Origin: Deltaproteobacteria bacterium
GTDB lineage: Bacteria; Desulfobacterota; Desulfobulbia; Desulfobulbales; Desulfurivibrionaceae
NCBI GenBank assembly: GCA_026388695.1
Contig: JAPLJH010000009.1
Location: 1 to 45,020, forward strand
Reading direction: 5' to 3'
Length of the DNA stretch: 45,020 nt
Part shown: one piece after another, positions 9,230 through 40,144 of the stretch
Layout: every line of letters starts with the position of its first letter
Position numbering within the stretch: position 1 is the stretch's first letter
Position numbers and translations under genes: made by a program
The notes under the pieces: model-generated
The model's database searches: none
What the model was told of the DNA's origin: nothing
The model's input: only the letters and a program-made list of their open reading frames with translations

Positions 9230-9979
9230 ATGATGCAGGACGGAACGATCAATCTTGAGGATTACACCAAATCAGATTGGACCATTATGCTCAATGACCG
9301 GGTTATCACCACTTTTACCACCCATGAAGGCAGTAAGCTCATTATTGGCCGCAGCCCCGATGCAGATGTGGTCATCGACAACACCGCCATATCCAGACAC
9401 CACTCATCTATTGAACTCCGCGATGGCCGCCATTATCTGGCAGATATGAAAAGTACCAACGGCACCACCGTAAATGGAAAAAAAATTGTTTCCAAGGTTC
9501 CGGTAACAGAAAAAGACGTTATTTTCATCGGGAAATTTCGCTTGATCCAGGCGGCAGCGAATGAACAACATGCTTCGTCATCCTACGCCACGGCCATGGA
9601 TATTGATGACGAAGCAACTGTTTTTGTCAGTTCACCCCGACAACAGGTCGCAGCCCAACCCAGCCAGTCCAAATCTCCTTCCACAAATGAGATTTACCGA
9701 CTCACCGTACTTGAAGGCAACGCCTTGCCAACCATGCTCTCTCTTGACGGGAAGAGCAGTGTGAAACTCGGCAAAGACCCTTCCTGCGACATGATCATTC
9801 CCGGCTGGCTGGTCGGCAAAACCCAGTGCTACGTGGTGAGCAAAAAAGATAGATATTACATCGTGCCCCAGCGTTCGTGGACAAACACCCGCCTCAACGA
9901 TGTCATCATCAAAGAAGAACGCCTCTTACGCAAAGGCGATATGATTCAGATCAAGAGCGTAAAAATCAGGTTCAATTAA
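9230..9979 (+). CDS. Double FHA-domain protein
   Basis: A 249-residue protein with two forkhead-associated domains. The first (about residues 35-110) keeps the phosphothreonine-binding residues: IGRSPDADVVID with R41, ISRHH with S55 and STNGT at 75-79. The second (about 160-249) has the fold signature (KLGKDPSCDMII...TNTRLND) but lacks the Ser-x-x-His element, so it may not bind phosphopeptide. ATG 9230 follows AAGGA; ATG 9233 is an alternative. The kinase gene starts eight bases after the stop. The protein probably recognises the kinase's autophosphorylated form or its substrates. Confidence 0.9.
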   Translation: MMQDGTINLEDYTKSDWTIMLNDRVITTFTTHEGSKLIIGRSPDADVVIDNTAISRHHSSIELRDGRHYLADMKSTNGTTVNGKKIVSKVPVTEKDVIFIGKFRLIQAAANEQHASSSYATAMDIDDEATVFVSSPRQQVAAQPSQSKSPSTNEIYRLTVLEGNALPTMLSLDGKSSVKLGKDPSCDMIIPGWLVGKTQCYVVSKKDRYYIVPQRSWTNTRLNDVIIKEERLLRKGDMIQIKSVKIRFN

Positions 9980-9987
9980 TCACCCGG

Positions 9988-12426
9988 ATGCTTTCCAAAC
10001 TCTTTGATCAAATAGACAAGTGGAAAAAAGGCGCCTCCCCCGGCATCCCAGGTGAAGCATCCACCAAAGCCCGCCAGCCTTCCCTCTCTCCTGAAATTCC
10101 TCAGGTACCTACCTGGGCTCCTGGAGATACCATTCTTAACCGTTATCATATCGAACAGGTTATGTCGGGATCCATGGGGAACGTTTACATCTCCGAGCAT
10201 CTCGGTTGGAAAATAAAGGTCGCGATCAAAGCTCCCCGGCCTGAAGTCCTTGCCGACCGTGAAGGCATGCGCCGGATACTCAAAGAAGCCAACAGCTGGG
10301 TCAGGATGGGCATGCATCCCAACGTCGCTTCCTGTTTTTATGTTCTTGGCATCAACAAGATCCCCCATCTTTTCATCGAATTTGTCGATGGCGGGAATCT
10401 TTCCGACTGGATCAAGGCCGGTCGCTGCAGAAACCTCCGCACCGCCCTCTCTCTTGCCATTCAATTCTGTCACGGCATGGAATTTACCCACCAACGGGGC
10501 ATTATCCATCGCGATATCAAACCCCAAAATATTCTGATCACCAAAAACTCCTTGTTAAAAATAACCGATTTCGGCATTCTCCTTGCCCATGGGGATACAG
10601 AAAAAGGCGACGGCCAGGTTCCTGATGTTGACCCGACAGATCATGAAGCCACCATCGGTTTTCGGGGAACCCTCGGCTACGCATCCCCAGAACAACTACG
10701 CAACGCCCACACGGTTGACCTGCGGACGGATATCTTCTCATTTGGCCTGTGTCTCTGGGTTATGCTCTGCGGCAAGAAGCCATTTACCAACAATACCTTA
10801 GAACATAAAATACCCGCCCCGACTCCGGCTGCACCGGACATCAAATTTTCCGCAGGGCTCAAAGCTATTTTACGCAAAAGCGTTGCCTACAATCCCGACG
10901 ACCGCTATCAAAATTTTGCCGAGATGCGGGAAGCCCTGAACGGGGCTTACACTGCGGCCTTTAACACCTCCTGCCCCTACGCGGAGCTCAGCAATATCGA
11001 TCTCAGGGCAGACGGCCTTAACAACAGAGCTGTCTCCCTCTTTGAACTGGGAGAAAGCAAAGAGGCTGCCGCCTGTCTTAACAAGACCCTTGACGTCAAT
11101 GAAATGCTCCCCGAAGCGGTTTATAATATGATTCTGCTCAACTGGCGCTCGGGAACAAAAGCAGGGAAAATTATCCGGCAGATTGAAACAGCCAAAAAAC
11201 GTGGCGCCACAACGCCTTGGCTCACCGAGATGGAGGCTGCGGTCAAACGCAGCATGGTGGCTGACAACGTCGAGCTTGAAAAGCAGCAATTTCCAGAATT
11301 CCGCCTGTGTACCCCAAAAAACTCCCTGGAAATTTTCCGCGAAGGGCAACTCCATTTCTCTGTGCAGCGCAACATCCTCGACCACTTGGACAATAAACGC
11401 TATGGCCCATGCCATGACATCCTGATGACGGCATGGAAAAACAGCAGCTACAAAAAAGACAAAGTTTTCAATATGGTCTATCATCGACTGTTGTTGGTCG
11501 GCAAAAAAAAGAAAGTGCTGGGAGTCCAGCGTTTTCTGACTTTGAACGGTGATGAAGGGCCGACAACACATCTGGCCCATATCCCGAATACAAAGAAATT
11601 TGTTGCCGCCGGCCCCAAGGGAAAAATAATCCTTCACGACCTGGGTGCCTCCTCACAGCATGGCCTTGTCTTGGGGAAAGACGGCAGTGCTATTTCCGCG
11701 CTGGCTATCTGTCCCCGGAGTAATTTTATCGCCGTAGGCGCACAGGATGGAACCGTCTGCCTTTTTTCCACAAAAACCGGTACCCTGGAATCAAGGGAGC
11801 CTGCCCATAATGGCCCGGTGCATGCTTTAGCCTTCAACGAAGATGGCCGCTACCTTGCATCCGGCGGCGCAGACGGCATCATGAAAATACGCAAACTCGG
11901 CACCGGCCCGGAAATGTCCACCTCAATCAAGGAAGGCGGCTCTGTCCGCGCCATTACCTATACGACTAGTGGTTTAAATCTGGTAACCGGGAGCGAAGAC
12001 GGCTCTGTCCGCTTCTGGGACACAAACGGCAAAGAATGCACGCGAATCATTGAAGCCCATGCCATGCCGGTTATCGCCCTGGCAAATTCATCTGATGGCC
12101 AGCGCTTTGTTTCCGCTGGCACCGACCGTCACCTCAAAGTATGGGAGCACAAGACCGGACGCTGCCTCAAATCGATCAAAGCCCATGATGAAACCATTTC
12201 TTCCGCTTTGTTTCTCCAGGACAACCAAACCCTGATCTCCGGCTGCGAAGATGACATCATCAAACTTTGGGACAGTAACAGTGGGGAATGCCTTGCCATT
12301 CTTGACGGCAGAGGCGATGGCATTTACAGCCTTGCCCATGGACCAAAGCCCCACACCTTTCTTGCCGGGAGAAAAGACGGGGCTATTGTTTTTTGGATGG
12401 TAATCTACCAACTTGATTTTGAGTAA
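9988..12426 (+). CDS. Ser/Thr protein kinase with C-terminal WD40 propeller
   Basis: An 812-residue protein. The Hanks-type kinase domain (about 50-310) has a glycine loop GSMGNVY (61-67), Lys81 in VAIK, Glu100, catalytic HRDIKPQN (174-181) and DFG (194-196), so it should be active. A helical TPR-like stretch (NRAVSLFELGESKEAAACL) follows. Seven WD40-type repeats from about residue 520 to the end (for example VHALAFNEDGRYLASGG, SVRFWD, HLKVWE, IIKLWD) probably form a closed propeller for partner binding. There is no transmembrane segment. The start at 9988 is chosen because the longer frame overlaps the FHA gene. It lies between an FHA protein and a PP2C phosphatase, so the three should form one circuit. 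Confidence 0.93.
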   Translation: MLSKLFDQIDKWKKGASPGIPGEASTKARQPSLSPEIPQVPTWAPGDTILNRYHIEQVMSGSMGNVYISEHLGWKIKVAIKAPRPEVLADREGMRRILKEANSWVRMGMHPNVASCFYVLGINKIPHLFIEFVDGGNLSDWIKAGRCRNLRTALSLAIQFCHGMEFTHQRGIIHRDIKPQNILITKNSLLKITDFGILLAHGDTEKGDGQVPDVDPTDHEATIGFRGTLGYASPEQLRNAHTVDLRTDIFSFGLCLWVMLCGKKPFTNNTLEHKIPAPTPAAPDIKFSAGLKAILRKSVAYNPDDRYQNFAEMREALNGAYTAAFNTSCPYAELSNIDLRADGLNNRAVSLFELGESKEAAACLNKTLDVNEMLPEAVYNMILLNWRSGTKAGKIIRQIETAKKRGATTPWLTEMEAAVKRSMVADNVELEKQQFPEFRLCTPKNSLEIFREGQLHFSVQRNILDHLDNKRYGPCHDILMTAWKNSSYKKDKVFNMVYHRLLLVGKKKKVLGVQRFLTLNGDEGPTTHLAHIPNTKKFVAAGPKGKIILHDLGASSQHGLVLGKDGSAISALAICPRSNFIAVGAQDGTVCLFSTKTGTLESREPAHNGPVHALAFNEDGRYLASGGADGIMKIRKLGTGPEMSTSIKEGGSVRAITYTTSGLNLVTGSEDGSVRFWDTNGKECTRIIEAHAMPVIALANSSDGQRFVSAGTDRHLKVWEHKTGRCLKSIKAHDETISSALFLQDNQTLISGCEDDIIKLWDSNSGECLAILDGRGDGIYSLAHGPKPHTFLAGRKDGAIVFWMVIYQLDFE

Positions 12427-14762: not shown

Positions 14763-16091
14763 ATGGCCCGACAACCCGCCACCCACACCGCCCCCTTGGC
14801 AGAACGCCTGCGTCCGCAAACGATAGATGATTTTGTCGGGCAAAAACAGCTGCTGGGCGAGGACAAGCTCCTTAGTCGGCTCATCCACCAGAGATACCTG
14901 CCCTCCCTTGTCCTCTGGGGCCCGCCCGGCACCGGTAAAACCACCCTGGCCCGGATTCTTGCCCAAACAACCGGGGCTGATTTTTCTTTCTTTTCCGCAG
15001 TTCTGTCCGGGGTCAAGGAGATTCGGGAAATAGTGGCCCAGGCCCAGGCGGCCAAGGAAGAACGCAACACCGCCACCATTGTCTTTGTAGATGAAATCCA
15101 TCGCTTCAACAAAAGCCAGCAGGACGCCTTTCTCCCCCACGTGGAAAGCGGCCTGTTGACCCTGATCGGCGCGACCACCGAGAATCCCTCGTTCCACGTT
15201 ATCGCGCCCCTTCTCTCCCGCTGCCGGGTTCTGGTCCTTGACCCCTTGAGCCCGGACGACTTACAGACCATTCTCCAACGGGCCATCACCGACAAGGACC
15301 AGGGGCTGGGCTCCTGGCAGATATCTCTTGCGCCGGAGGCTGCCGCCCACCTGGCCAGGATTGCCGACGGCGACGCGCGCAGCCTGCTGAACAGCTTGGA
15401 AATCGCCGCCAATCTCGCCGAACCGGATGCCACGGGCACGCGGCAGATAACCCTGGCCACGGTGGAAGAAGCCATCCAGCGCAAAAGCCTGCGCTATGAT
15501 GCGGATGGCGAGGAGCATTACAATCTGATTTCGGCCTTGCACAAAAGCCTGCGGGACAGCGATCCAGACGGAGCCCTGTACTGGCTGTGCCGGATGCTCG
15601 CCGCCGGGGAGGAACCCCTGTATGTGCTCCGCCGCCTGATCCGTTTTGCCTCGGAGGACATCGGCAACGCGGACCCGCAGGCCCTCATGGTTGCCATAAA
15701 CGCCAGGAACTCGTATCAGACCCTAGGCAGCCCGGAGGGAGAACTGGCCCTTGCCCAGGCCGTCACCTATCTTGCCACCGCCCCCAAGAGCAATGCCGTC
15801 TATGCCGCCTACAACACCGTGATGCAGGAGATCAGACGCACAGGCAGCCTGCCGGTGCCGCTCCATCTCCGCAACGCGCCAACTGCGTTGATGAAGGACC
15901 TCGGCTATGGCCAGGGCTATCAGTATGCCCACGATGATTCCCATGCCCTGGTGGATCAGCACCATTTACCGGCTGAACTTAAGGGAAAAACCTATTATCA
16001 GCCAACCAATCGAGGATATGAAGCGGTTATCCGGGATCGGCTGGGCAAATGGCGACAGCTGCTGCGGGATCGCAAAAAACAATCCGCCTGA
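14763..16091 (+). CDS. rarA: Replication-associated recombination protein A (AAA+ ATPase)
   Basis: A 442-residue AAA+ ATPase of normal RarA/MgsA length. Walker A is GPPGTGKT (53-60), Walker B VFVDEIHRFNK (from 107), sensor 1 IGATTENPS, and a C-terminal tetramerisation region ends in YYQPTNRGYE. RarA clears or restarts stalled replication forks and interacts with clamp loader and SSB. It follows DUF3786 after a 123-base gap and precedes the cytochrome by 34 bases. Confidence 0.96.
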   Translation: MARQPATHTAPLAERLRPQTIDDFVGQKQLLGEDKLLSRLIHQRYLPSLVLWGPPGTGKTTLARILAQTTGADFSFFSAVLSGVKEIREIVAQAQAAKEERNTATIVFVDEIHRFNKSQQDAFLPHVESGLLTLIGATTENPSFHVIAPLLSRCRVLVLDPLSPDDLQTILQRAITDKDQGLGSWQISLAPEAAAHLARIADGDARSLLNSLEIAANLAEPDATGTRQITLATVEEAIQRKSLRYDADGEEHYNLISALHKSLRDSDPDGALYWLCRMLAAGEEPLYVLRRLIRFASEDIGNADPQALMVAINARNSYQTLGSPEGELALAQAVTYLATAPKSNAVYAAYNTVMQEIRRTGSLPVPLHLRNAPTALMKDLGYGQGYQYAHDDSHALVDQHHLPAELKGKTYYQPTNRGYEAVIRDRLGKWRQLLRDRKKQSA

Positions 16092-16125
16092 TCCTTTTTC
16101 AGGCAACTATTTAGATCAGGAGCAC

Positions 16126-17778
16126 ATGACCACCATGAACAAACAGGCCACCTTTCTGCTGCTTTCCTTTCTTGCCCTGTTCAGCATAACCGCACCCGCA
16201 TCAGGGGCCTTGGAAAAAGGGAAGGGCAACGCCAGCCAACCCACAGAAGCGCTGCACGATCTAACCATCTTTTTTTCCAATGATGTAAGGGGAGAAACCG
16301 AGCCCTGCGGCTGAAAAAGCAATCAGTTGGGCGGTCTGCCCAAGAAAGCAGAGCAGCTTGAAGCCGTCCGGGGAAAAAAATCCGCAGTGCTTGCCCTTGA
16401 CAGCGGGGCCCTGCTTTTTAAGGATGAAAAGTTGCCGCAAGATCAACGCGAGCAGCTCACTGTTACGGCGCAGGGAATCACCGCAGCATACAGTAAGATG
16501 TCCTTTGCCGCCGTTGGCTTGGCCAGACAGGATCTCGCGGCAGGCCTGCCATTCCTCCTTGCTGTCCAGAAAAAATCAAACTTCCCCTGGCTGAGCGCCA
16601 ACCTGCTCAACCGCACCGAACGAAAAACCTGGTTCAAACCACACACCCTGATCACGGCAGGAGGTATGCGCATCGCGATCATCGGCCTCACCGGCCAAGG
16701 CCCCGACTCTCTCCTTACCGAAAAAGATAACGCGGTCATTGCCCCCTGGGAAGAGGTGTTACCCAAGGAAATCGCCCAGCTGCGTAGCCGGGCCGAGATG
16801 ATTATTCTACTTTCCAGCTTTCCTGCGGCAATAAACCGGAAAATTGCGGAGACCCATCCGGAGATCCACCTGATTCTCCAAGGCGGGAGCAACCAAGGCA
16901 ACATCCCCCCGGAGCGGGTCAACAACACCCTGATCACCCAGGTGGAAGGTCAGGGCAAATCAGTGGGTATTCTGGAAGTACATTGGAGCGCACAGAGCAA
17001 GAGATGGGAAGACCCCGGCTCGGAAAATCTGCTGGCAGACAAAAAAAACGAAATGGACCGCCTGGGATGGCAGATCAACCGGTACCGTCGACAAGGCGAG
17101 CCGGAACAGGCTTTCAAAAACCAACCCGAGGTTCTTGAAGTCTATAACGATATGCTGGCAAGACAACGACTGTTGGAAGAAGAGATTGTCCGTCTCACCG
17201 CCACGCAGAACGCACGGGAGGCGAGCCGCAAACGACTCTCCTCATACCGCAACCAATTTGAGGCCATGCGTAAGGACCTTCCGGACAACCCGGCGGTCCG
17301 GGCCATTGTCGATGCAACCACCAGCGAGGTGAACCGGATCGGCAAGGCTGCGGTAAAAGCGAGAATTTCAGGGATTACCGGCCAGCCCCAAGAAGGGCCC
17401 ACAGGAAATTACGCCGGCAGCACCGCCTGCACCAGCTGTCATGCCCCGCAGTTTGCAAAATGGCGCGGCACCCAGCATGCCACGGCCTATGACACCTTGG
17501 AGGCAAAGGGGCAGCAGTTCAATGTGCAGTGTCTTCCCTGCCACATCACCGGACCTGCCGCCCAGACAGGACAGGAAATGCTCGCCCTTGCCCATGACCT
17601 GCGCCAGGTCGGCTGCGAATCCTGCCATGGCCCAGGCCGTGCCCATGCCCTTCAGCCAGCGGCGGCCAAAGCTGGCCAGCCGACCATGGCCACCTGCCAG
17701 CGCTGCCACAGCGGCGAGCATGACGACAGATTCAACTTCAGCGAGGCGCTCTCCCGCCTGCGCTGCGGCGCCGACTGA
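16126..17778 (+). CDS. Probable selenoprotein: degenerate 5'-nucleotidase-like domain fused to a tetrahaem cytochrome
   Basis: One 550-residue frame if the TGA at 16312-16314 is read as selenocysteine (residue 63). A signal peptide (QATFLLLSFLALFSITAPASG) is followed by VRGETEPCG-Sec-KSNQLGGL. From memory, homologues in related bacteria have EPCGC-x-x-x-QLGGL, so Sec replaces a conserved Cys. The next ~300 residues follow the calcineurin-like 5'-nucleotidase pattern (VLALDSG, FPWLSANLLN, GGMRIAIIGLTG) but lack the His-rich metal-binding motifs. A coiled-coil region follows. Four CxxCH haem sites (Cys 435, 469, 497, 524) form a cytochrome c554-like end. It should be a periplasmic redox protein. 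A start at ATG 16135 is also possible. Without recoding, the gene would be a short secreted peptide plus an ORF lacking an export signal, which a cytochrome c needs. Confidence 0.85.
16315..16343 (+). promoter_or_regulatory. SECIS-like hairpin downstream of in-frame TGA
   Basis: Twelve bases after the TGA, TTGGGC (16327-16332) pairs perfectly with GCCCAA (16338-16343) around the loop GGTCT (16333-16337). The loop starts with GG, and GGTCTGC is the same as the top of the E. coli fdhF SECIS as I recall it. The distance from TGA to loop (18 bases) is within the usual bacterial range. SelB binds such hairpins to deliver Sec-tRNA. The coding sequence also keeps the conserved QLGGL here, so part of the stem may reflect protein conservation. 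Confidence 0.75.
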
Positions 17779-24178: not shown

Positions 24179-24607
24179 CTAGGCGCTGAGCCGCTCGGCC
24201 TCTTTTACCTTTCGGATCTCGCAGGCCATCTGGAACGCCTTTTCCTTCCCGTTTTTATTCACGGAAACGGAAGTCTTGCCCTGTTTACCAACGCGATTCA
24301 CCCAACTCACTTCATACCGGTTCAGCTTCTCGTTAAACCGGACGCCCACAACACCGGTGGTGGTGTTGCTCACTGTGACAAGATGTTTGTCGGTTCGGAT
24401 TTTTCCGATCTTTTTTTCCATGGTATCCCGCCAGGTAAGGGCTGCCAGCAGGCTAGAATAGCGCCCGCCGCATTTACCATCGGAAAAAAATTTAGAATGC
24501 GTTGTCCCTTGAAAACGAACCCGCACATACCAGCCGTGCGTCCGCTTGTCTTCCTGATCGATCCGCGCCACATCCTTGTGTTTTTCAAGTATAACCTTCT
24601 TTGCCAT
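24179..24607 (-). CDS. Tandem AP2-like DNA-binding domain protein
   Basis: A 142-residue basic protein containing two AP2/ERF-like beta-sheet domains. The first (about residues 12-70) reads HGWYVRVRFQG...KFFSDGKCGG...LLAALTWRD. The second (about 85-140) reads TGVVGVRFNEKLNRYEVSW...KAFQMACEIRKVKE. AP2 domains bind DNA and in bacteria are found alone or in mobile homing endonucleases; no nuclease domain is present here. ATG 24607 follows GAGGTGAG with good spacing; a GTG two codons upstream is possible. It stands alone, convergent with gph, next to a 680-base gap. Confidence 0.75.
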   Translation of the reverse strand: MAKKVILEKHKDVARIDQEDKRTHGWYVRVRFQGTTHSKFFSDGKCGGRYSSLLAALTWRDTMEKKIGKIRTDKHLVTVSNTTTGVVGVRFNEKLNRYEVSWVNRVGKQGKTSVSVNKNGKEKAFQMACEIRKVKEAERLSA

Positions 24608-25287
24608 GTCCACTCACCTCGCACAGGTTCAAAACCACTGAAAATGCCATGCCCAACGGTCCCATTGGCAACACGGCCCCCCCTGCGCCAAACACCATTT
24701 CTTTCACACATGCATCAATAATTAAGAACGAAGAAACAACAGGATTCTTCGATGAAGGATTTATCTATATCCAATTAAGAATCTTTTTGCAAGTCGCAGC
24801 AAGCTGCTGTTTTTAAGTGCTGTCTGTGCCAGACTACCACAAAAAAACACAGGCTGCAGGTATATACACCTAGTTCCATACTGAAAAATTCAATACCAAC
24901 GAGCCCTACAAATTAGCACCAACCACATGCAACTAACTGAAAAAACAACAAAATACGATGCCTACGCGCACAAACACAACCTAACAATAAATACTGTTCT
25001 GCCATCTCTCCCCGGAAGCCATAGCCCCACACATTCAACCGCCGGCTAATTGCAATTTCCCTCACAATCTCATTTTTCCCAATATCCAGGATACTGACAT
25101 ATGTCAGCGGTTGACTTCTTCTCATCCCCACCATGATCTGGTATATAAGGACCTCTTGGGGATCAGCGACCGAATGCACATAAAGACATCCCAGCCCGAT
25201 AATCCTGGAATTATGGCGAACCAATACTTACAGCCCCGCGTACTTACCGCCACCGACCCTTTCCTTCAAACAAACACAGGCAGGCCC
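24608..25287. other. 680-base AT-rich intergenic region
   Basis: The largest non-coding stretch of the window, between the AP2 gene and mazG. It is richer in A and T than the flanks, and A-rich in its middle. I see a weak hairpin GCAG-CAAG-CTGC followed by TTTTT at about 24796-24814 and no RNA gene. A 103-codon minus-strand frame (24913-25224) has no recognisable domain. A foreign or decayed segment is possible but not demonstrable. Confidence 0.4.
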
Positions 25288-36469: not shown

Positions 36470-39400
36470 ATGAACACACCGTCCCCCAGCACCAATCCTG
36501 AACGCTGCTCTCCTCCTCTGAGGCCCAGAAAATTGTTGGGCGGACTGCTACTGTTCGCCATTACCCTGTTGTTTGCCCAATCGTCCTTTGCTGCTGTCGC
36601 CTTTCGCGCTGCCACCTCCGCCAGCGCCAGTGGTGGAGTTTCCGTTATCACCCATGTGGCCACCGGCTCCACAGCCAATGCGGCAAATGGCGATGTCACA
36701 CCAACCTTGCCTGCCGGTATTCAGTCCGGTGATTTGTTGCTTTGCCTGGTGGAATCCCATGACACAGTGCAGCCCAGTGCCCCATCGGGATGGTCTTCCG
36801 TTTATTCCCTTACGGGCACAGCCCATCGCGCTTCGCTGTTTTACAAGATCGCCAACACACCGGAATCAAACCCCCTTATTACCCACAGCGGCGGGAATAG
36901 CATTATCGCCCAATGCTCGGCCTTCCGTGGGATAAATCAGGCCATCCCCTTTGACGTGGTCTACACCAACACCAATGCCCAATACACAGCCTCAGGCTTA
37001 CAGATCAACACCGGAACCCTGACCACCCTTACTCAAGGAAGCCTGCCGCTTTTTGCCGCCCACATCAACAACAATCCAAGCAACCTGTCAGTGACAACCA
37101 CCGGCGGGTTAACTTGGTCGCAGTCCTTTTATTCGCGGACCGGTAGTGGATTAGACTCAGGAATAGGTCTTTTTTACGCAGCCCAACCAGCACCTGGAGC
37201 CATCGGGCCATTACAAGCCACAGCCAACAACCAGCCAGGAGAAAGCCACGGCGTACTGCTGGCTCTCAGGCCTGCCGCGCCAAATACCCTGACCATCAGC
37301 ACACCAACAGGGACGATTACCAACGATGCAATGATCGCCACCATCGCCATCCGGCCATGCAGCAACACCAGCGGCGGGGCCTGCACCACCACTCTTACCG
37401 CACCTGCCGGATGGACTCAGGTGCGGGGAATCGACACCCCTACCGGCGGTGGCACAGGCGGCTACGGCAGCCGTCACTTCGTATACCGCCGCACCGGCAC
37501 AGCTCCAGAGCCAGCAAACTATACCTGGAGCATAGGCGGAAACCCGGCTCACGCTGGCGCGGTAGGCGGTATTCTGAGCTTTTCGGGAGTGGACCCCACC
37601 AATCCTGTTGTTGCCGAGGCCGGACAAACAACAGCAAACGCCTACACCCACACCGCCCCGAGCATCGACACCGGCACGGTCACCGGCACCATGCTGGTCA
37701 GCTCCCACTCTTCAAACTCTTCCGGAACCTGGACGCCGCCACCGCCTCCTCCCACTGGAATGACAGAAAGAATCGACATTCCCTCCCTCGCGGTTCCAGA
37801 CGTTCTGGGCATTTCCATCGAGACCAACACCGAATTACGTACAGCATCGGGAGTAACCGGCACACGCACAGCAACCATTTCCAATCCGCCGACCAGCGAT
37901 ACCGGCGCAGCTCACATGCTGGCCTTACGACCCACCATTATCGCTGCACTGGACCACTTCACTCTCACCGTCGGCGGCTCTGCCTCCACCTGCACCCCGC
38001 AAACAGTGACCATTACCGCTTATGACGCATCAAACATCATACTTAAAAGCTACACAGGCACAGTAAGCATCACTACCTCCACCAATCATGGCGACTGGTC
38101 GGACACGGTCATGCCCACCACTCTCAACAATGGAACCATCGATGATGGCGCGGCAACCTACGCCTTTGTCGGCGGTGACTCTGGCACTAAAGAACTCCAA
38201 CTGACCAATGATCATGCGGACAATCTGACCATCACCGTTCAGGACGGCACCGCAACTGCCACCTCGGCTACAGTGACCTTCAGCGATAATGCCTTCGTCA
38301 TCACCCCCACCACATCAACAGGCGGCGTGGCCAACAGCACCGAACTCGTAGCCGGACGGAATCACAATTTCAAGATCGAGATGTGGCGAAAAAATCCAGG
38401 GGGGAATTGCAACATTGCCTCAGGCTACAATGGAACAAAAAATCTCGATGGCTGGATTACCCGCGATACGCTGGACCCTAATGGCACCGCACCCACCATT
38501 GGAGCAGTAAGCCTGCCTTCCAGCGCACCAGCGGTGAGTGCCGCTTCGAACAACCTTACCAATATTAACTTCACCAATGGCACGGCAACTATCACCATAT
38601 CCACAACCGATGTGGGCAAGTACATGCTCAATCTACGCGACGACACCCGCTCCTTTGCTGGGGCAACGAATATTGGCGGAGCCTCGGATGTCCTCATCGT
38701 CCGGCCCTTTGGCCTTGGCTTTACGAACATCAACAAAAGCGGCACCAGTAATCCCGGCGGCACAGCCTCCAGCGGCAATGCCTTTGTGGCTGCGGGAGAC
38801 ACCTTCTCCGCCACAGTCGGCGGCTATCTCTGGGCCTTAGCCGATGACACGCTCAACGACGGCATCCCGGATGCCGGAGCAACCATTACCGACAACGGCC
38901 TGACCCCAAGTTTTGCTTATAGCACGGCACTTGTGTCGGCGATCCACACGCCAGCAAGCGGATCAAGCGGGACACTCAGCGGCACCACCACAATTCCCCA
39001 AGCAAATTTTTCAGGCGGCAAAACAACGATAAGCGATCTCGCTTGGAATCAGGTGGGCAGCCTGTATCTGGATGCCACCACTACAAGCTACCTTGGCGTT
39101 GTCGGAGTGAACGTAACTGGCCGCAGTTCGTCCATTGGCCGGGTCTATCCCCATCATTTCTCCGTGGCTTCCAGCAGCGTCACCGCAGCCTGCAACGGCT
39201 TCACCTACATGGACCAGCCTAAGCTACAAATTGCCTATACCCTGCAAGCCGAAAAACTTGGCAACGGAGTAACCAGCAACTACGATAACAACACGCTTGG
39301 CTATACCCTGGTTGCCACGCCTGCATTGGCGGCGGAAAACAACAATGCAGGCGTCAATCTCGCCAGCCGCATTATTACCAGCAGCAGCCCAAAATGGACG

Positions 39401-40144
39401 ACCGGACAGTATATTTTTAACGATTCAAGCGCCAAATTCGTACGCGCCACCCCACCCGCCCCCGATGGGCCCTATGACATCTTGCAACTCGGAGTAAACA
39501 CCAGCGGCGGCGATGCGGTCTTAATCCAAAATCTGGACATGCGCGCTACCACAACAGGCAACTGCACAACCATCCCCAACTGCGATGCCAAACAACTCGG
39601 GACCGCCACAAAAATGCGCTATGGGAGATTACGACCGCTCAACGCCTATGGCCCGGAAACAGGGACCATCATCATGCCGGTACACATGGAGTACTACACT
39701 GGCACAGCCTTCGTCCGCAATGTATTGGACAATAATTGCACTACCCTCTCATCTCCGGCTGACTGTACAGTTGGGACAGGCAACTACACACTCTTCAATA
39801 CCGTAGGAAGCACTCCGGCCTGCACGATTGTCATCGGCACTGGTACTGCCACAACCACTCTCTCGGTTATTAAGACCCAATCCACCGACCTAAGTCCAGG
39901 CATTGCCAAGGAGGGCATCGCCAAACTGTCTTTCACCCCGACAACTCCCCCAGCTCCACCGGCGGGGAAAACCAATACTGGTTATGCCGACCTGACCGCG
40001 CTGATCACTTCTTCCCTGCCCTGGCTGCTCTACGAATGGGACGGCCTGCACACCACTTACAATGAAAACCCCGCCGGTCGAGCCAACTTCGGCATCTATC
40101 GCGGCAACGACCGAATCATCAACTGGCGGGAGATCATTCGCTGA
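36470..40144 (+). CDS. MshQ-like large surface protein (DUF6701)
   Basis: A 1224-residue secreted protein. A signal peptide (LLGGLLLFAITLLFAQSSFA) is followed by two related beta-domains: one around residues 70-260 (GDLLLCLVESHD...SLFYKIANT) and one around 270-480 (CTTTLTAPAGWTQV...HFVYRRTG). Ig-like repeats follow (FTLTVGGSASTCTPQTVTITAYD). The C-terminal third (FSVASSSVTAACNGFTYMDQP to the end PWLLYEWDG...FGIYRGNDRIINWREI) is the DUF6701/MshQ region. MshQ is the largest protein of MSHA pilus loci and probably sits at the pilus base or tip or acts as an adhesin. Here it is the first gene of the pilus set, whereas it is last in Vibrio-type loci. No clear ribosome-binding site precedes ATG 36470. 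Confidence 0.8.
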   Translation: MNTPSPSTNPERCSPPLRPRKLLGGLLLFAITLLFAQSSFAAVAFRAATSASASGGVSVITHVATGSTANAANGDVTPTLPAGIQSGDLLLCLVESHDTVQPSAPSGWSSVYSLTGTAHRASLFYKIANTPESNPLITHSGGNSIIAQCSAFRGINQAIPFDVVYTNTNAQYTASGLQINTGTLTTLTQGSLPLFAAHINNNPSNLSVTTTGGLTWSQSFYSRTGSGLDSGIGLFYAAQPAPGAIGPLQATANNQPGESHGVLLALRPAAPNTLTISTPTGTITNDAMIATIAIRPCSNTSGGACTTTLTAPAGWTQVRGIDTPTGGGTGGYGSRHFVYRRTGTAPEPANYTWSIGGNPAHAGAVGGILSFSGVDPTNPVVAEAGQTTANAYTHTAPSIDTGTVTGTMLVSSHSSNSSGTWTPPPPPPTGMTERIDIPSLAVPDVLGISIETNTELRTASGVTGTRTATISNPPTSDTGAAHMLALRPTIIAALDHFTLTVGGSASTCTPQTVTITAYDASNIILKSYTGTVSITTSTNHGDWSDTVMPTTLNNGTIDDGAATYAFVGGDSGTKELQLTNDHADNLTITVQDGTATATSATVTFSDNAFVITPTTSTGGVANSTELVAGRNHNFKIEMWRKNPGGNCNIASGYNGTKNLDGWITRDTLDPNGTAPTIGAVSLPSSAPAVSAASNNLTNINFTNGTATITISTTDVGKYMLNLRDDTRSFAGATNIGGASDVLIVRPFGLGFTNINKSGTSNPGGTASSGNAFVAAGDTFSATVGGYLWALADDTLNDGIPDAGATITDNGLTPSFAYSTALVSAIHTPASGSSGTLSGTTTIPQANFSGGKTTISDLAWNQVGSLYLDATTTSYLGVVGVNVTGRSSSIGRVYPHHFSVASSSVTAACNGFTYMDQPKLQIAYTLQAEKLGNGVTSNYDNNTLGYTLVATPALAAENNNAGVNLASRIITSSSPKWTTGQYIFNDSSAKFVRATPPAPDGPYDILQLGVNTSGGDAVLIQNLDMRATTTGNCTTIPNCDAKQLGTATKMRYGRLRPLNAYGPETGTIIMPVHMEYYTGTAFVRNVLDNNCTTLSSPADCTVGTGNYTLFNTVGSTPACTIVIGTGTATTTLSVIKTQSTDLSPGIAKEGIAKLSFTPTTPPAPPAGKTNTGYADLTALITSSLPWLLYEWDGLHTTYNENPAGRANFGIYRGNDRIINWREIIR

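Follow-up and report, generated by a model that had tools for sequence, protein, structure and literature searches.

A probable selenocysteine codon in an UshA-like protein with four haem-binding motifs, a member of the known family NF041198

The gene at positions 16126-17778 of the window (by which we mean the whole stretch of 45,020 nucleotides analysed here, from contig JAPLJH010000009.1 of assembly GCA_026388695.1) very probably encodes a selenocysteine (Sec) containing member of the known protein family NF041198, its codon 63, a TGA, being decoded as Sec if the comparison of sequences is a reliable guide. The frame, which like all its parts lies on the forward strand, comprises 550 codons plus a stop (TGA, 17776-17778), and in translation its sole internal stop is the TGA at 16312-16314. 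An AGGAG at 16118-16122 is likely the ribosome-binding site, and the N-terminus (about residues 1-27, 16126-16206) is a hydrophobic stretch that, judged by eye, resembles a signal peptide. Read as Sec, the TGA completes a Cys61-Gly62-Sec63 (CGU) motif, with NDVRGETEPCG before it and KSNQLGGL after it, so that the local motif reads EPCG-U-KSNQLGGL, exactly as given in the first-pass annotation of this DNA. There follow the remainder of an UshA-like, metallophosphoesterase-related part (16258-17010, limits approximate, placed by profile matches and alignments), in which most metal ligands are replaced, then a linker, and then a cytochrome c554-like tetrahaem part (17404-17742, limits again approximate). 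The latter has four CXXCH sites in the translation, CTSCH (17428-17442), CLPCH (17530-17544), CESCH (17614-17628) and CQRCH (17695-17709), which start at residues 435, 469, 497 and 524. The same annotation had placed a signal peptide in the first half of the gene and the haem sites in the second, and this is the arrangement that we see.

The protein matches NF041198, named "UshA-like (seleno)protein" (UshA_like_PCGU), with 623.9 bits against a cut-off of 275, over residues 37-539. Because this match spans positions 15-519 of the 519 in the model, the model includes the haem part, and the UshA-like and multihaem parts fall within a single match, which bears out the earlier view that the two halves form one gene. 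The PCGU/PCGC motif of the family is present (EPCG-TGA-KSNQLGGL), and we found no feature that distinguishes the window protein from the family. The gene cannot, however, be called a new selenoprotein, as had been claimed, since NF041198 is a model of the entire fusion and already bears the name "(seleno)protein"; nor is it correct that no Sec form had been described. As far as the accessible parts of these papers go, an UshA-like CxU selenoprotein was tabled in the 2008 GOS survey with 76 Sec sequences and 92 Cys homologues (PMC2398784), appears in the table of a 2022 review (PMC9312934), and is listed under NF041198 in a 2026 review (PMC13188914). What we present is therefore the correct reading of a gene of a known family, and the claim of a discovery fails because that family is already catalogued. 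A limited literature search found no remark on the haem part of the UshA-like selenoprotein in the accessible parts of these three papers, and the words "cytochrome" and "heme" are absent from the first of them (PMC2398784).

Two other families deserve mention. NF049981, UshA-like (seleno)protein family 2 (model of 262 positions), has a related UshA-like part, but it matches the window protein with 40.2 bits, below its cut-off of 140, and its motif is CxxU according to the accessible part of the 2026 review (PMC13188914). ExtKL, which the same part of that review gives as a multihaem cytochrome selenoprotein (NF040886), is likewise a multihaem cytochrome family with Sec members; it is not among the NCBIfam matches of the window protein at E values up to 1.

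Evidence for decoding comes from relatives. We searched 146 genomes (the genome of the window itself plus relatives from the level of genus to that of order) with the NF041198 profile and obtained matches in 145 of them, 125 being above the family cut-off; among the listed matches above this cut-off most have exactly one TGA, and about a dozen have none. From 74 loci and the window we kept 57 distinct sites, that is, sites differing in the 60 nucleotides from the codon onward, and here the codon is TGA in 45, TGC in 11 and TGT in one. (Four of these rows are weak: among the Cys rows, the alignment of L070 at the site is doubtful and L075 is gapped next to it; among the Sec rows, L073 is part of a gene and L072, like L070 and L075, scores under the family cut-off.) The first-pass annotation had placed Cys in homologues at this column, and 12 of the 57 aligned sites do carry a Cys codon. 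All seven relatives taken from genome contigs (65-99% identity) have TGA at the site. For five of these, dN/dS relative to the window gene is 0.14-0.20 over the UshA-like sequence downstream of the TGA and 0.08-0.26 over the haem part. By this comparison, the gene is under purifying selection, with low dN/dS also beyond the TGA.

That a sequencing or assembly error turned a Cys codon into TGA can practically be dismissed, for although the window comes from a fragmented assembly (114 contigs), the same TGA is found in many other assemblies, including the one-contig genome G019. It is also highly improbable that the TGA is a true stop, whether in a decaying pseudogene or between two separate genes: there is, admittedly, a stop codon in the frame, and three loci (L098, L100 and L108) have additional stops, or the frame breaks, close to the haem part, but the TGA recurs at the majority of sites, in numerous families of the order, and is followed by sequence with low dN/dS. 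In these three loci the haem part is severed by a stop codon, sits at a greater distance or is read in a different frame, which may reflect decay, real splitting or assembly error.

A SECIS-like hairpin (TTGGGC, a GGTCT loop, GCCCAA) lies at 16327-16343, 12 nucleotides 3' of the TGA. These 17 nucleotides fold into a 6-bp stem with a GGUCU loop at -9.1 kcal/mol, a loop that we take to resemble that of E. coli fdhF. The energy alone is weak evidence, because its z is -1.48 and 19 of 200 shuffles fold equally well; among 20,000 synonymous recodings drawn from the codon usage of the gene, a stem of 6 of 6 pairs arose here in 2.8%, and the stem together with the GGTCT loop in 0.2%. At least five of the six pairs are kept in 44 of the 45 Sec forms versus 4 of the 12 Cys forms (Fisher p 2.5e-6, relatedness ignored), or in 4 of 10 Cys forms when the weak rows L070 and L075 are left out, and the GGTCT loop is found in 41/45 versus 3/12 (p 1.4e-5, relatedness again ignored). 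The sole Sec exception is L091, where a one-base shift gives a stem of seven pairs closed by a loop of six bases. The outer pair of the stem in Sec forms is U-A in 26, C-G in 8, a C/A mismatch in 10 and an A/G mismatch in one, and the two glycines are encoded GGC-GGT in 41 of 45. Since the LGGL residues are present in both sets, the difference between Sec and Cys forms is largely one of codon choice. The energy of 48-nucleotide folds does not tell the two sets apart, Sec forms having a mean of -10.9 kcal/mol, no stronger than the -11.4 kcal/mol of Cys forms. Two Cys forms, L061 and L064, have the complete six-pair stem, with one G-U pair in L064, as well as the GGTCT loop, and L023 and L066 have five pairs; the hairpin in L061 and L064 is likely a relic of a recent change from Sec to Cys. 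The hairpin follows the TGA at a fixed spacing, and the first-pass annotation was right to propose a SECIS-like element here.

A search for selA, selB, selC and selD in the same genome had been set beforehand as a check, and all four were found, each over its cut-off: selA with 617 bits, tRNA-Sec with 72.5 bits (gathering score 47), selD with 374 bits, and selB in two copies (L009 and L010, each on a contig of its own, with nearly equal scores of 366.9 and 365.4 bits), a pair that possibly reflects two strains binned together. The selD gene (L056) has one in-frame TGA and probably encodes a selenoprotein itself, to judge from its sequence. The TGA/Cys column, the hairpin and the machinery thus agree with the first-pass annotation in its central claim, that of a selenocysteine codon.

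The reverse situation is seen in genus g47, all three sampled genomes of which (G105, G139 and G141) have only the Cys form among the matches listed. In none of the three did we find selA, or selB over its cut-off, and their tRNA-Sec scores are 45.9-47.1 bits, with G105 just above the gathering score of 47, versus 70.6-74.6 bits in ten other genomes scored. Each of the seven remaining full-length Cys rows is from a genome in which a TGA copy is present too (G043, G052, G060, G073, G081, G096 and G107, of which G081 and G107 are the genomes of L061 and L064, so that each of these has a Sec copy as well); in both G052 and G060 this TGA copy is without the haem part. A tree built from 51 proteins of full length, 41 of them Sec and 10 Cys forms (with the site column masked and six rows shorter than 500 residues left out) requires at least three Sec/Cys switches, a number as low being reached in none of 500 shuffles (a quick search, on a tree with several long branches), and one of the switches falls in genus g47.

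The agreement between gene form and machinery is not perfect: fourteen genomes gave no selA match, and ten of these carry the TGA form, which looked like a counter-example. We examined six of these ten (G005, G087, G101 and G130 being outside this sample), and all six have selB over its cut-off and a tRNA-Sec above 70 bits. In G070 it is plausible that selA was missed because the stretch beside the gene that accompanies it in relatives is outside the sequence searched, and in G120, equally plausibly, because that accompanying gene sits at a contig end. The near-complete genome G063, with a TGA form, gave neither selA nor its accompanying gene at a good score, with selB and tRNA-Sec both present. 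G052 has selA, and its selB is split in two, neither half reaching the cut-off.

We now turn to the UshA-like part, the label "5'-nucleotidase" that it had received being right about ancestry and wrong, in our opinion, about function. Kinship is clear in a PDB search with a profile of 32 family members, which found the nucleotidases 3ivd (E 4.2e-16) and 1ush (E 1.7e-14). The UshA 5'-nucleotidase profile, on the other hand, gives the window protein 33.7 bits and does not reach its cut-off of 600, and the SoxB profile gives 31.7 bits, likewise short of its cut-off of 550. Alignment to 1ush and 3ivd shows that the first metal Asp is kept and that NDHHG has become NDVRG, GNHE has become ARQD and GHxH has become GGSN; at these positions lie residues that we take to be metal ligands in UshA, and the window protein does not have the two-metal ligand set of that enzyme. 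The label misleads because most of the phosphoesterase metal ligands are replaced. The window protein thus shares with UshA (COG0737) its N-terminal sequence kinship, and differs from it in the replaced ligands, in the Sec/Cys motif and in the added haem part. Across the 32 rows the invariant positions are P60, C61, G62, Cys/Sec63, Q67, G69, G70 and the four haem sites. Among remote members, the spacing is CxxU in L101, L104 and L107, and the Cys partner is absent in L072, L103 and L109; the latter suggests that Sec is more important than its Cys partner. An AlphaFold2 model from an alignment of eight rows (A2) has a pLDDT of 39.4 and a pTM of 0.26.

Could the protein still be a nucleotidase or another phosphoesterase, its selenol aiding metal binding or playing a structural role? 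We consider this decidedly unlikely. Besides the PDB kinship, it may be argued in favour of such a role that the Cys forms L062 and L067 keep the DAGD aspartate, and that the 2008 survey, in its accessible part, counts the UshA-like family as one of three major ones in which no Cys-based redox motif is conserved (PMC2398784). Against this stand the very low score with the UshA profile and the replacement of GNHE and GHxH in the window protein.

The haem part matches PF13435, the cytochrome c554 family, with 50.7 bits (gathering cut-off 20.8), and in the PDB an uncharacterised multihaem protein, 6i5b (E 3.3e-26), and cytochrome c554 itself, 1bvb (E 1.2e-16), with weaker matches to MccA (E 3e-4) and NrfB (E 4e-4). 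It resembles cytochrome c554, which differs in having no UshA-like part. All 51 full-length rows have the four CXXCH sites; the haem part is absent in L071, L072 and L074 (379-428 residues), two of which pass the NF041198 cut-off.

We also looked for hints to function in 34 neighbourhoods (24 Sec and 10 Cys loci; three of the Sec loci, L006, L043 and L045, have short flanks). A gene for an AAA+ ATPase of the rarA/mgsA type (14763-16091, forward strand; PF12002 MgsA_C, 230.3 bits) lies upstream in the window, as it does in 23 of 24 Sec loci and in none of the 10 Cys loci. Downstream, 18 of 24 Sec loci and again none of the Cys loci have a gene that, from its sequence, we take to encode a manganese-dependent pyrophosphatase. 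These being housekeeping genes, all they show is that the position of the Sec locus is conserved, and we rejected the neighbourhood as a clue to function. Elsewhere, the window encodes a small AP2-domain protein (24179-24613, reverse strand; 37 bits, cut-off 33.3) whose cluster occurs in 9 of the 34 neighbourhoods, a protein kinase fused to WD40 repeats (9877-12426, forward strand) whose cluster occurs in 8, and a DUF6701 protein of 1224 residues (36470-40144, forward strand).

How might such a protein work? Going by the comparison, SelB, guided by the hairpin, would deliver Sec-tRNA, and translation would pass codon 63. The signal-like N-terminus and the CXXCH sites suggest that the product would then be exported and four c-type haems attached. 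Cys61 and Sec63 could form a redox pair, or Sec63 could act as an attacking selenol, and electrons would move into or out of the tetrahaem part; where a member has no haems, a separate partner would be needed. Since most metal ligands have been lost and Cys-Gly-Sec directly follows the loop in which UshA carries its first ones, the scaffold may well have become a selenol/thiol redox site that trades electrons with the tetrahaem part, a mechanism to which we give about even odds; the job of the protein would perhaps be an electron-transfer reaction outside the cell membrane. This redox reading is our own, because the 2008 survey, in its accessible part, sets the UshA-like family apart from Cys-based redox families (PMC2398784). 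Several things count against it: the near neighbours are housekeeping genes and give no hint to function, several relatives are without the haem part, and the Cys partner is missing in the three remote members named above.

A narrower version would make the protein a SoxB-like sulfur enzyme, whose Sec or Cys binds sulfane sulfur and whose haems take the electrons. SoxB thiosulfohydrolase is a distant relative, of which Sec and a haem part are, to our knowledge, not features. The weak SoxB matches (43.1 bits in L063 and 49.8 bits in L071, besides that of the window protein) and the resemblance of the haem part to c554 and, weakly, to MccA and NrfB speak for this version; these matches are, however, far under the SoxB cut-off, and no sulfur gene was found among the ten window genes scanned, nor by eye among the recurrent neighbours. 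We consider it unlikely, and a reduced-sulfur compound as substrate is a doubtful guess drawn from the SoxB kinship and the haem relatives.

Returning to the broader redox reading, the complete picture of a phosphoesterase scaffold stripped of its metals and remade as a periplasmic selenol redox enzyme with four haems, in which Sec gives way to Cys when the machinery is lost, is quite conceivable, and we put it forward tentatively. We know of no characterised example of a phosphoesterase scaffold remade as a haem-wired selenol redox enzyme. For the family, the present analysis indicates that this probable selenoenzyme is common in one bacterial order, shows that a genus without the Sec machinery carries Cys in place of Sec, corrects the nucleotidase label and focuses the question of function on the chemistry of the CGU site.
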